Part shown: positions 3,675 to 28,773 of the stretch, in pieces | How positions within the stretch are numbered: the stretch's first letter is position 1 | How the letters are laid out: each line of letters opens with the position of its first letter | DNA from: Myxococcales bacterium | Lineage (GTDB): Bacteria > Myxococcota_A > Polyangia > Polyangiales > Polyangiaceae | Length of the DNA: 32,968 nucleotides | NCBI GenBank assembly: GCA_013297655.1 | Contig: JAAFHV010000086.1 | Span: 1-32,968 of the forward strand | Direction of reading: 5' to 3' | Program-made: the position numbers and the translations under genes | The notes under the pieces: generated by a model | Database searches by the model: none | What the model saw: only the letters and a program-made list of their open reading frames with translations | Told to the model about the DNA's origin: nothing

Positions 3675-5222
3675 TCAGCGCAGGATCGCGTCGAGCTGCG
3701 ACGCGATGTGCTCCAAGACCGTGACCCGCGCGAAGCGTTTGTCGTTCGCGCCGACCACCTTCCACGGGGCCTCTTTGGTGCTGGTGCGCTCGAACATGTC
3801 GTTCGCAGCCTCGACGTAGGCGTCCCACTTTTCGCGGTTGCGGAAGTCCTCGTCCGTGATCTTGTAGCGCTTGAACTCCAAGCTCTGGCGCTGCGCAAAT
3901 CTCCGCTTTTGCTCGTCTTTGTCGATCGTGAGCCACAGCTTGACGACGGCCACTCCGCGCGCGCGGATCTCGTCCTCGAAGCGCACGATCTCGCCGTAGG
4001 CGCGGGCGACCTCTTGCGGCGTCGCGAAGCCTTCGACCCGCTCCACGAGCACCCGTCCGTACCACGAGCGGTCGAACACGGTGATGCGACCGTGGCGCGG
4101 CAGCTTGCGGAAGAAGCGCCACAGGTACGGGTACGCGCGCTCCTCTTCGCTCGGCGCCGCGATGGGCACCACCTCGTAGAGGCGCGCGTCGAGGGCTCGC
4201 GAAAGCCTCCGGATCGCGCCGCCCTTGCCCGCCGCGTCGACGCCTTCGAGGACGATCGCCGCGCCGTGCTTGGGGAATCGTTTGTGACGCGTGAGGAGCG
4301 CGATGCTGCGTTGGGCGCGCTCGAGGCGATCCTCGTAGGCCTTCTCTTCGAGCGTCTCGAACGACACGTCCTCGATTCGGGTCGCCTTCGCGAGCCGGCC
4401 CTTCGGTAGCGCGGCGGGCAGGCTGAGCTTGGTCTTCTTGTCCTTCGTCGCGGCGTCGGACTTCTCGGCGAGGCTCGCCGTGATCGCGCTCGTCAGCGCG
4501 CGCCCCACCTCGATCGCGGCCGCGCGCGGCTTCGAGCCGTCGATGATCTGCCAGGGCGCTTTTGGTGTGCTCGTCGCGCGGACCACGCTCATCGCGCCGG
4601 CGTGGATCCTTTCGTGCTCGGCGTTGTCGCGCCAGTCGTCCTTCGTGACCCGCCAGCGGGTGTCCTTGTCGCTCTCGAGCTCCAAAAATCGCTTCTTCTG
4701 CGCTTTACGATCGAGATCGAAGAACAGCTTCACGAGGTGAACGCCGTTGTCGGCGAGGAGCGCCTCGAGCCCGAGGATCGACGAAGGATCGAGCTTTTTC
4801 CCCTTCGCGGCCTGTTCGAACATGCCCTGGTACCAGCCCGAGAAGAAGATCCCGACCTGGCCTCGCTTCGGGAGATCGCGGAAGAAGCGGAACGCGAACG
4901 GCAGCTCGTTCTCCTCTTCGATCGCCCCGCCGAACGCGAAGGTGCGCACGTGACGAACGTCCATCCATTCGCCGAGGAGGTTCACGTTCTCCCCCCGCCC
5001 GGAGCCGGCGAGCCCGTTCACGATCACGAGCACGGCCTTCTTCTTCGCGTCCACGAGCGAGAGCTGAGCTGTGAGGAGCTCCGTTCGTGTCTCCTCCTCG
5101 CGCCGATCGTAGACCTCGCGCGAGATGTCCTTCGGCTCGCGCGCGCGCGGCTTGGCGCCCTTCTTCGGCTTCGTGGGACGAGCACGTTCGGTCTTCGCGG
5201 CGGCGGGAGCTTTGGATGGCAT
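3675..5222 (-). CDS. pap: Two-domain PPK2: polyphosphate:AMP phosphotransferase
   Basis: 515 residues with two tandem PPK2 domains. Family members of this fused type (class II PPK2) transfer phosphate from polyphosphate to AMP, making ADP. The C-terminal domain (about 295-515) is the catalytic one: Walker A GVDAAGKGG at 327-335, Walker B-like VFDRSWYGRV at 382-391, and a lid segment KLWLTIDKDEQKRRF. The N-terminal domain (about 35-255) keeps the fold but has a degenerate loop (GLAGSGRGE at 70-78) and FFSGWYQGM in place of FDRSWY. This matches the known pattern of an inactive first domain. Residues 1-32 are Lys/Arg/Ala/Pro-rich and probably disordered. Start ATG at 5222. No exopolyphosphatase or ppk1 is adjacent; nei follows directly. 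Confidence 0.93.
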   Translation of the reverse strand: MPSKAPAAAKTERARPTKPKKGAKPRAREPKDISREVYDRREEETRTELLTAQLSLVDAKKKAVLVIVNGLAGSGRGENVNLLGEWMDVRHVRTFAFGGAIEEENELPFAFRFFRDLPKRGQVGIFFSGWYQGMFEQAAKGKKLDPSSILGLEALLADNGVHLVKLFFDLDRKAQKKRFLELESDKDTRWRVTKDDWRDNAEHERIHAGAMSVVRATSTPKAPWQIIDGSKPRAAAIEVGRALTSAITASLAEKSDAATKDKKTKLSLPAALPKGRLAKATRIEDVSFETLEEKAYEDRLERAQRSIALLTRHKRFPKHGAAIVLEGVDAAGKGGAIRRLSRALDARLYEVVPIAAPSEEERAYPYLWRFFRKLPRHGRITVFDRSWYGRVLVERVEGFATPQEVARAYGEIVRFEDEIRARGVAVVKLWLTIDKDEQKRRFAQRQSLEFKRYKITDEDFRNREKWDAYVEAANDMFERTSTKEAPWKVVGANDKRFARVTVLEHIASQLDAILR

Positions 5223-27097: not shown

Positions 27098-28138
27098 GTG
27101 CGGCGCTCGCGGGTGTATCGTTTGGATGTGATCCTCTACGGACGCACCGTCCAGCAATCGATCGACCACCACCATGTGGGTACGTTCAGGAAAGAAGTGG
27201 CGATCACCGCTGGCGTGCCGCTCGCGCTCGTCCGGAAGCGCCTCGCGAACGCGGAGAGCACCCGCGCGCCGGTCTTGCTCATCCATGGCTTCGGGCAAAA
27301 CCGCTACACGTTCCACCTCCCGTCGCGCAGCTTCTCGAACTACCTCGCGGCGGAGGGCTTCGACGTGTTCAACGTCGATCTCCGCGGTCATGGGCGCTCG
27401 CGAAAGCTCGGCGGCGCGCGCTCGCTCGGTGCCCACAGCTACGTCGAGGAAGACATTCCTCAGGCCGTCGCGGAGGTGCGCGCGCTCTCTGGCGGGCGCC
27501 CCGTGTTCCTCGTCGGCCACTCGCTCGGTGGGCTCGTCAGTTATGCCGCGGCGCCCTCGCTCGTCGGCCACGTCGCAGGCGTCGTATCGCTCGGCAGCCC
27601 GTACCATTTCACGCGCGGATCCATGTTCCTCGGCGCGGTCCGCGCGCTCAACGGCGGTCTTCGTGCGCTCGGAGTTCCGCTCGGGAATATCCCTCTCACG
27701 CTCCGTCCGGTCGGCATCGCGCTCCGCGGTATGAAGCGCATGTTGGGCGAAGGCGTGCATCCGCTCCCGCTCCGCGCCTGGCACCACGAGGGCCTCGAGA
27801 AGCACGTCCTCGACGAGCACATCGATCTCGCGTTCGACCGTGCGAGCCTCGAAGATCTACGCAACCTCTTCGATTGGGCGTGGGAGCGCAGGTTCGGCGG
27901 AGCGCGCGGATACGCCGAGCGCTTCGAGCGTCTCACCGAGCTGCCTCTCCTCGTCATCGCTGGCGAAAAAGACGATCTCGCCTCTCCCCGCGCCGTCCGC
28001 CCCGCCTACGAGCGCAGCCGCTCGCGCGACAAGACCTACCGCGAGTACGTCGCCGGCCACATCGACCTCGTCGTAGGCCGCGAAGCCCCAAGAACGATCT
28101 GGCCCGATGTCCGCAACTGGCTCCTCTCCCACCTGTAG
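27098..28138 (+). CDS. Alpha/beta-hydrolase fold protein
   Basis: 346 residues if GTG at 27098 is the start; GTG at 27128 is possible and the true start is uncertain. Catalytic pattern: nucleophile Ser142 in GHSLGG (140-145), oxyanion-hole HGFG (63-66), acid Asp292 or Asp293 in AGEKDDLASP, and His321 in AGHIDLVVG. The sequence VFNVDLRGHGRSRKLG is the usual strand-4 region. A lid of about 90 residues (168-255) sits between Ser and Asp and is rich in Arg/Leu/His. Substrate cannot be told from sequence; lipase/esterase-like or a polyhydroxyalkanoate-type acyl hydrolase are options. The TAG stop is the first three bases after the G of the repeat element that follows. Confidence 0.88.
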   Translation: MRRSRVYRLDVILYGRTVQQSIDHHHVGTFRKEVAITAGVPLALVRKRLANAESTRAPVLLIHGFGQNRYTFHLPSRSFSNYLAAEGFDVFNVDLRGHGRSRKLGGARSLGAHSYVEEDIPQAVAEVRALSGGRPVFLVGHSLGGLVSYAAAPSLVGHVAGVVSLGSPYHFTRGSMFLGAVRALNGGLRALGVPLGNIPLTLRPVGIALRGMKRMLGEGVHPLPLRAWHHEGLEKHVLDEHIDLAFDRASLEDLRNLFDWAWERRFGGARGYAERFERLTELPLLVIAGEKDDLASPRAVRPAYERSRSRDKTYREYVAGHIDLVVGREAPRTIWPDVRNWLLSHL

Positions 28139-28260
28139 GCAGGGCGGCTTTTCGACGATCCCTTCGCCCTGGCGTCGTCGGACGTCCTCACGAACAGGAG
28201 TTCGCTCCGGGCGATCCTCCTAGCCAGGGCTCGGTCTCGTCGAAAATCCACCCTGCCTAC
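28135..28260. repeat. TA-bounded palindromic element A, 126 bp
   Basis: Starts GTAGGCAGGGCGG and ends CCCTGCCTAC. The arms pair imperfectly over about 25 bases, and the outer ends are perfect complements with TA next to each end (28136-28137 and 28258-28259). A TA pair at each end is the pattern left by IS630/Tc1-type MITEs. The first 34 bases (28135-28168) are the exact reverse complement of 28460-28493. The hydrolase stop codon TAG (28136-28138) lies within its first bases. Confidence 0.7.
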
Positions 28261-28270
28261 CCTGGGACGG

Positions 28271-28310
28271 GGGCTCGCGGACTCGCCGGGCGGCTCGCGG
28301 ACTCGCCGGG
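28271..28310. repeat. 20-bp tandem duplication, two units
   Basis: 28271-28290 and 28291-28310 differ at one base (unit begins GGG or CGG, then CTCGCGGACTCGCCGGG). It lies between the two palindromic elements. Confidence 0.8.
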
Positions 28311-28368
28311 CACGCACGTCCACCTCCGCGGGCGGGTCTGCGAGCCCGCGCCGACCATATAACGAGAG

Positions 28369-28493
28369 GTAGGCGGGGCGGATTTTCGGCGAGACCGATC
28401 CTGGCCTAGGAGCCCGCGCGGAATGTACTCCTGTACATGAGCACGGGCGACGACGGCCAGGCGAAGGGATCGTCGAAAAGCCGCCCTGCCTAC
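28369..28493. repeat. TA-bounded palindromic element B, 125 bp, opposite orientation
   Basis: Starts GTAGGCGGGGCGG and ends CCCTGCCTAC. Its right arm is the reverse complement of element A's left arm (34 identical bases), and its left arm matches the reverse complement of A's right arm with a few changes. TA flanks lie at 28370-28371 and 28491-28492. The inner part contains GTACTCCTGTAC, a short palindrome. Neither element encodes a protein. Confidence 0.7.
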
Positions 28494-28500
28494 GCGCTGC

Positions 28501-28773
28501 CTACGGTTTGCGGTCGCGTTCGAGGCGGGCTACTTCGTCTTCGAGGCGGCGGACGGTGCGCTTCAGATCGTTCACTTCGTCCTCCGTCGCGAGCGACATG
28601 GACTTGGCGAGCTTCTCGAGCTGCTCCGACGTAAAGCTCTGCACCTTGCCGGGCACCGCCATCGCCTGCATGAGCGCGTTCATCACCCGCGGATCTTGGA
28701 GGAGCTTCCCCACGCGGGGATCGCTCATCAGCTTCAGACCCTGCTTCATCAAGGACTTCTTGAGGTCGCTCAT
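28501..28773 (-). CDS. Small coiled-coil protein, phasin-like
   Basis: 90 residues from the ATG at 28773; the longer frame to 28959 is Arg/Cys-rich and unlike the rest. Residues 1-60 are amphipathic helices (LKKSLMKQGLKLMSDPRVGKLLQDPRVMNALMQAM). Residues about 62-87 form a heptad-pattern coiled coil (EDEVNDLKRTVRRLEDEVARL). This resembles phasins and similar small granule- or membrane-associated helical proteins, but the match is by pattern only. Its TAG stop lies in CCGTAGGCAGC, a second copy of the repeat-end motif GTAGGC found in elements A and B. Convergent with the hydrolase gene. Confidence 0.72.
   Translation of the reverse strand: MSDLKKSLMKQGLKLMSDPRVGKLLQDPRVMNALMQAMAVPGKVQSFTSEQLEKLAKSMSLATEDEVNDLKRTVRRLEDEVARLERDRKP

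Follow-up and report, generated by a model that had tools for sequence, protein, structure and literature searches.

A dispersed family of palindromic hairpin repeats at gene ends in a Myxococcales bacterium

Two copies of a dispersed hairpin family

A 32,968-nt stretch of DNA from a Myxococcales bacterium of the family Polyangiaceae (GenBank assembly GCA_013297655.1, contig JAAFHV010000086.1, positions 1 to 32,968; hereafter the window) contains two long palindromic elements, A and B, between an alpha/beta hydrolase gene and a convergent gene of 90 amino acids. They are best read as members of a non-coding family of palindromic repeats that is dispersed in this bacterium, resembles miniature inverted-repeat transposable elements (MITEs) and falls in the class of stem-loop sequences. 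Most examined copies in the host genome start at or close to a stop codon of the same strand, where they probably act as hairpins at the 3' end of the transcript. We refer to the family of A and B as family 1, to the host genome as G000, to other genomes by other G numbers and to individual loci by L numbers.

Element A (28136–28260, plus strand) is an imperfect hairpin of ~125 nt in sense orientation to the hydrolase gene, and element B (28369–28492, minus strand) lies in the opposite orientation, sense to the convergent gene. Each folds on its own into one long hairpin, with a folding energy of -75.9 kcal/mol (z -8.5) for A and -75.1 kcal/mol (z -8.4) for B, values that none of 200 shuffles equalled in either case. 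The left arm of A (28135–28168) is identical at 34 of 34 bases to the reverse complement of 28460–28493. Coordinates, exact comparison and folding all agree here with a first-pass annotation of this DNA, which had described two elements of about 125 bp in opposite orientation with 34 shared bases. The same annotation took the elements to be bounded by TA, but TA does not generally delimit the family. By eye, most family-1 copies start with GGAGGC, GAAGGC or unrelated letters, and where GTAGGC is present, as in A and B and a small number of further copies, its TA is base-paired with its complement at the opposite foot.

A BLAST search of the host genome with A gave 44 matches, part of them fragments of one element (40 of 89 candidates scored). 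A covariance model built from 27 copies (R1) gave 77 matches at E ≤ 1, of which 52 reached at least 57 bits (150 of 14,012 candidates scored); A scored 131.5 bits and B 127.1 bits. The 77 matches include at least one second-strand match to one and the same copy, and all copy numbers are lower bounds, since these searches scored a subset of the first-look candidates. These dozens of matches show that the resemblance between A and B is not due to chance, and they dispose of a single-copy sequence, the outcome that the first-pass annotation had named as fatal to its reading. As in stem-loop sequences, the copies are many and dispersed, and each is able to fold into one hairpin. The genes upstream are of mixed kind: ten were scanned with Pfam, of which six matched families of mixed function and four had no match.

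Related families occur in other genomes of the host's taxonomic family. The model matched at E ≤ 0.01 in 18 of 59 genomes, host counted, and the richest after the host were G028 (35 matches), G024 (32), G051 (19), G003 (13), G008 (12) and G010 (11), the others having one or two. In an even draw of the phylum, 8 of 188 genomes matched at E ≤ 1e-4 (again with the host counted), five of them from the host's own family. When named genomes were scanned with a pattern, 41 stretches matched, of which 18 belong to a single Polyangiaceae bin and 8 carry the label Myxococcales or Labilithrix; the remainder came from one Proteobacteria-labelled bin (10), an Actinomycetota-labelled bin (2), a Nitrospinota-labelled source (1) and Shewanella (2). 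Rfam gave no gathering match in the window, where only an implausible miRNA family appeared at E ≤ 1 (0.51), and the hairpins at six distant loci had no Rfam match either; apart from two tRNAs, all Rfam matches were at chance level. A BLAST search of plasmids with A found no match.

In the consensus, an internal loop separates a long stem from a second stem, and a large internal loop separates the second stem from a third, which is followed by a small apical hairpin; copies with an extra hairpin or a long apical insert also occur. Compensated double changes are present at 22 of 35 pairs in the alignment of 27 copies, amounting to 125 cells compared to 35.6 in shuffled alignments (reached in 0 of 500 shuffles), and the signal is lost when the partner columns are shifted by 1–3. 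The outer arms may differ wholly from copy to copy while their complementarity is retained. The right foot is rich in pyrimidines, with 72% in its last 12 nt compared to 47% at 7–40 nt beyond (32 of 33 copies given). The apical motif is among the most conserved columns of the alignment and was searched as a pattern. In A it reads GTCCTCA-stem-AGGA-stem-CTCCGGGCG (28184–28213, plus strand). In B, where it was placed by alignment, it reads GTGCTCA-stem-AGGA-stem-TTCCGCGCG (28415–28444, minus strand), and a shorter pattern matches exactly at 28418–28444 on the same strand. We considered and dropped a loop-loop pseudoknot between AGGAG and CUCCU, because by eye CUCC is retained in families with other apical loops. 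Integron attC sites have the conserved ends GTTRRRY and RYYYAAC; no such common ends were seen by eye among the listed feet.

Position and orientation at the ends of transcription units

Genes were called with a hexamer model trained on the host genome, and the limits of each element were placed by eye or by model. We examined 53 host copies, namely 42 from the BLAST search and 11 of 21 further fetched model matches; the rest, mostly weaker matches, stand outside this count. The hairpin starts at -13 to +29 nt from a stop codon on the same strand in 46 of the 53 copies, and at -6 to +3 nt in 39 of these. Conversely, the 3' end of no copy (0/53, of which 45 have at least 250 bp of contig on that side) falls within -16 to +35 nt of an opposite-strand stop. 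Of the ten fetched matches left out, eight belong to other subfamilies or are too diverged, with distances of 973, 179, 80, 14, 129, 286, 21 and 26 nt, L245 is overlapped by a low-scoring gene call, and L248 (at -1 nt) is split by a nested element. With all 21 further matches counted, 13 lie within -16 to +35 nt. The first-pass placement of palindromic elements at gene ends, sometimes as convergent pairs, is thus borne out.

Placement is similar in four other genomes, with a same-strand stop at 17 of 20 copies in G028, 9 of 11 in G010, 8 of 9 in G003 and 5 of 7 in G008. An opposite-strand stop was adjoined by none of the 20 copies in G028 and by two copies each in G010 and G003. A tRNA scan covered 26 loci, chosen mainly as exceptions, and three of these hold a tRNA gene. 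In the host locus L242 the hairpin starts 1 nt from the 3' end of a tRNA-Leu gene on the same strand, and at L136 in G008 it starts at the 3' end of a same-strand tRNA-Asn gene, its foot overlapping the last bases of the tRNA. These copies at tRNA 3' ends indicate that the common factor is the end of the transcription unit and not the stop codon itself.

The arrangement of neighbouring genes points the same way. Among the fetched loci, no divergent gap held an element (0/49 in G000 and 0/13 in G028), and the 32 element-bearing gaps of G000 are either convergent (14) or between tandem genes (18). Two convergent copies are present at eight of the fetched loci. At four of these (the window, L031, L033 and L043), each of the two stops has a copy of its own. 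An explanation by general terminators was set aside: the mean folding energy at gene ends without an element was -60.5 kcal/mol, compared to -74.6 kcal/mol at those with one (124 ends with room, 92 without element). The 25 most stable of the 92 element-free ends were inspected, and one of these, L054:4400, proved to hold a diverged relative of the hairpin that is absent from the BLAST matches.

In the window itself, the hydrolase gene (27128–28138, plus strand; Pfam Hydrolase_4, 2e-23) ends inside A, with its stop TAG (28136–28138) within the first bases of the element. The convergent gene (28501–28773, minus strand) has a weak STI1-HOP_DP match below the curated cut-off. Its stop TAG (28503–28501) lies within a partial second copy of the element foot, GTAGGCAGCGC (28494–28504, minus strand), and B starts 8 nt past that stop. 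From such positions, the first-pass annotation proposed that the repeats may supply or replace native stop codons. This is partly supported, in that an element-supplied stop fits part of the family. TAG is the stop in 18 of 42 element-bearing genes compared to 35 of the remaining 244 called genes (Fisher p 5.7e-5), but the other 24 use TGA or TAA. A comparison of hydrolase C-termini, which the same annotation had suggested, places the stop by eye within one or two codons of the host's position in 9 of 12 readable orthologues. The host enzyme has 5 residues after the last conserved tryptophan, and the orthologues have 5 (one), 6–7 (eight) or 9–13 (three); the hydrolase stop has thus hardly moved. 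A repeat located at stop codons need not have been targeted there by the stop codon.

Orthologous sites give a view of the locus without the element. With the host counted, 40 of 60 genomes from the family have a match to the hydrolase and 49 have one to the convergent gene. We compared seven relatives whose fetched loci had both genes convergent and resolvable, judging by length, fold and eye. In this comparison of empty sites, which the first-pass annotation had proposed, six of the seven convergent gaps lack such an element; these gaps measure 0 (overlapping genes), 19, 21, 21, 29 and 85 bp, compared to 362 bp in the host, although the relatives are too distant for the exact element ends to be read off. 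The 85-bp gap contains a different, simpler hairpin. The seventh relative, G135, has a 184-bp gap with a differently built hairpin of similar apex, sense to the hydrolase gene and absent from the model matches listed for that genome. G337 is more closely related (81% identity over 1.2 kb) but offers no empty site, because its fetched stretches contain the convergent gene without any match to the hydrolase.

Many copies are followed by tandem arrays. Between A and B, TRF and a repeat search identified a 20-bp unit in 2.2 copies (28268–28311, no strand). In the host, 21 of 39 element-adjacent intergenic stretches contain an array, compared to 14 of 163 others. The array units differ between loci, and the array starts 5–60 bp past the foot in 26 of the 34 copies that have one within 450 bp. 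The excess holds within each arrangement of genes, both in convergent gaps (11/14 vs 3/12, p 0.016) and in tandem gaps (7/18 vs 8/79, p 0.006). G028 shows arrays in 11 of 17 element-adjacent stretches compared to 3 of 35 others; its tandem gaps taken alone do not reach significance (5/9 vs 3/16, p 0.087), and its convergent gaps have no control. The numbers in G010 (0/5), G003 (1/4) and G008 (3/7) are small and not significant.

Other repeat families and hairpins with a similar apex

The host carries two further hairpin repeat families. One of these, with the ends GAGCACCGAAC, occurs in near-identical copies at L248 (about 4000–4160), L251, L253 and L254, with CTAG on both sides in three of the four. 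At L248 it is inserted at CTAG in a family-1 hairpin, which makes this a nested insertion. The other, with the ends CAGCCCGTTGATTTAC (L249, L251 and L252), is flanked by TA in the two complete copies and has the apical motif of A and B. In G024, near-identical copies of an element (L124–L132) enclose a hairpin with the same apex, and all ten G024 copies lie away from stops. This family was set aside as a mobile element of another kind whose apex is similar. Its copies end in GTA-type repeats, two of them (L125 and L126) have 8-bp duplications by eye, and we presume that the element is IS66-like.

Hairpins with the apical motif also occur outside the phylum. These were compared by the apical motif only, which does not distinguish homologous from convergent hairpins. 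With one pattern and the fold examined, four viral contigs (L144, L145, L146 and L147) proved to have such a hairpin where a long open frame ends, and Pfam identified a major capsid gene upstream of the hairpin in the three viral contigs scanned. In Shewanella, it lies at the end of gcvP. A Nitrospinota-labelled bin of 2.2 Mb (L085 / G319) gave 97 weak model matches at E ≤ 0.5; in 4 of the 13 hairpins displayed, an open frame ends 45–47 nt before the motif, approximately at the start of the left arm. Two of the viral-contig hairpins had no match by BLAST in a phage collection. One of these two matches Pseudomonas plasmids, where a palindrome with TA on its flanks has a related apex. There is an IS630 transposase gene 32 bp from the plasmid hairpin, but the end repeats of that insertion lie outside the hairpin.

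A probable role at the 3' end and the competing explanations

Family 1 is probably a directional 3'-end hairpin that terminates transcription and/or shields the 3' end of the mRNA, without a classical U-tract. The copies would be kept on the coding strand at the 3' end of the transcription unit, so that the transcript would finish in a ~125-nt hairpin starting at about the stop codon. This hairpin would then end transcription or protect the RNA 3' end, and the copies would spread by some transposition-like process. Such a role predicts the orientation, the copies at tRNA genes and the lack of elements in divergent gaps of the fetched loci. The data show the copy number, predicted structure, covariation, position and orientation of the elements and their absence from orthologous sites; that the elements are transcribed, that they terminate or stabilise transcripts and that they spread in a transposition-like way is what we infer.

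Several results count against this interpretation. A terminator scan found no match at A or B, and four T in a row at the foot occur in only 2 of 32 copies, so that the U-tract of an intrinsic terminator is mostly lacking. On the sense strand, nearly all mismatches between the two arms are pyrimidine-pyrimidine, with 278 compared to 16 purine-purine in 26 host copies, and with 140/34, 131/14, 84/18 and 175/23 in four further groups. Moreover, G.T (49) is not commoner than A.C (48) in the host arms. Taken alone, this bias and this parity do not favour simple selection on a sense RNA hairpin. The arm sequences vary down to the foot, and hence no fixed end that a transposase might recognise is visible. 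Seven of the 53 host copies, among them the tRNA case and some copies at contig ends, lie away from a same-strand stop; none of the ten G024 hairpins lies at a stop; and the Pseudomonas-type hairpin is antisense to its nearest gene, which breaks the sense rule. Finally, the orientation could in principle reflect target preference instead of selection.

Target preference is central to an alternative explanation, in which family 1 is a MITE of the IS630/Tc1-mariner type that inserts at TA, often within CTAG, and lands at TAG stops because CTAG is rare elsewhere, orientation being secondary. This is compatible with a role at the 3' end, but we consider it unlikely. IS630 elements favour CTAG, and this tetranucleotide is six times under-represented in the window (16 compared to 99 expected from base composition), which together with the TAG excess in element-bearing genes (18/42 vs 35/244) would fit such targeting. 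The two other host hairpin families add to this, as both are TA-flanked in the copies seen, one is nested in a family-1 copy at CTAG and the other shares the apical motif of A and B. Yet a fixed terminal inverted repeat is absent from family 1, in which the feet differ though they remain complementary. By eye, most right feet lack TA, and TA on both sides occurs mainly where the stem is GTAGGC/GCCTAC. The 24 of 42 element-bearing genes with TGA or TAA do not fit, and 46 sense copies compared to 0 antisense are left unexplained, as are the copies at tRNA ends. An IS630-type transposase with the same ends, anticipated by the first-pass annotation, did not turn up: the only DDE_3 gene found in the host genome has an unrelated inverted repeat. 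Family 1 may have arisen as a MITE whose feet were later rebuilt, given that two other host hairpin families resemble TA-inserting MITEs and that one of them has the same apex; the TAG enrichment fits part of such a history.

We would give similarly little weight to a structure that acts at the level of DNA, either a cruciform or a single-strand hairpin bound by protein, whose arms are kept complementary by template switching instead of RNA selection. This would account for the near equality of G.T and A.C, for the scarcity of one-sided changes among the 35 pairs (apart from one column) and for the enrichment of tandem arrays beside the elements. The mismatches that are pyrimidine-pyrimidine on the sense strand are G.A pairs on the opposite strand, and G.A pairs stack well. 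However, arm-to-arm copying should erase the conserved mismatches, which persist, and a DNA structure does not explain the strict orientation to transcription.

It is improbable that the wider set of hairpins forms a superfamily of long 3'-end hairpins across phyla and phages, defined by the apical motif GCUCA-stem-YUCC-GC and rebuilt to the stop region of each gene. According to this explanation, copies would be made onto transcript ends by copy-back or reverse transcription, instead of being inserted at a DNA target, and the arrays would be a by-product. The exact motif, however, is rare: among 282 genomes of the phylum, the pattern occurs in no more than 3 (0 for a reversed-pattern control). 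With a looser motif, viral contigs yielded 15 stretches, including 11 new ones, and a clear long hairpin was visible only in L171/L176 (one sequence twice). Both results weigh against a broad superfamily.

The first-pass annotation suggested bidirectional terminators shared by convergent genes, which our results do not support and which we regard as quite improbable. A does fold on both strands, and 14 of the 32 element-bearing gaps are convergent. But the remaining 18 lie between tandem genes, and one element serving two genes is hard to reconcile with eight loci that carry two convergent copies, in four of them each at its own stop, or with 46 sense and 0 antisense placements among 53 copies. 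Mobilisation by a Y1 tyrosine transposase, as for repetitive extragenic palindromic (REP) sequences and their associated transposases (RAYTs), is very improbable: A and B begin with GTAG, but few other copies do and the tetranucleotide is not conserved in the family, the elements are 3–6 times as long as REPs (~125 nt vs 20–40 bp), and the 97.6%-complete host genome has no Y1_Tnp (PF01797) match whereas 5 of 14 control genomes have one.

A directional hairpin at the transcript end is the most likely reading of family 1, which can be compared with known bacterial repeats. According to the parts of the source consulted, YPAL / RU-2 of Yersinia are palindromic intergenic repeats of ~168 bp that are expressed with upstream genes and are thought to affect the stability of the upstream transcript; their recent mobility is evident from empty and filled sites, and their targets span or adjoin dyad symmetry (PMC2229807). 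Family 1 is likewise made of long palindromic intergenic repeats. It differs from this partial description in its host, its covarying arms, its sense placement at stop codons, its presence at tRNA ends and the arrays behind it, and target duplication was not seen for family 1. The same excerpts describe ERIC, NEMIS and RUP as hairpin repeats of ~107–155 bp with terminal inverted repeats and TA termini, and the effect of ERIC on mRNA as orientation-dependent (PMC2229807). In contrast to these, as far as they are described there, neither terminal inverted repeats nor TA termini are fixed in family 1. GTAG-tagged REPs are described, in the sections consulted, as RAYT-associated palindromes of 20–40 bp at gene ends, whose GTAG end may provide a TAG stop (PMC3733652). 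Family 1 shares with these the palindrome at the gene end and the possible supply of TAG, but it is longer and its host has no Y1 transposase that we found. Systematic stem-loop families are the subject of a further source, also consulted in part (PMC2267715). Like Rho-independent terminators, family 1 places a stable coding-strand hairpin immediately behind the gene, but most copies lack the U-tract and have large conserved internal loops and a conserved apex.

Our literature search, which left most subscription papers outside its reach, found no description of family 1, nor by title or abstract of such repeats in myxobacteria. Family 1 is a new family of a known general kind, the bacterial palindromic repeats, with unusual features that set it apart from YPAL, ERIC, NEMIS and RUP as these are described in the parts of the sources consulted. 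To our knowledge, the transcript-end signals of large GC-rich myxobacterial genomes have been little described. A repeat with covarying arms, and in many cases an array behind it, that lies in one orientation at the ends of dozens of unrelated genes and of at least some tRNA genes provides a handle on how transcript ends form in these genomes, and family 1 offers a way to see how a dispersed repeat becomes, or mimics, gene punctuation.
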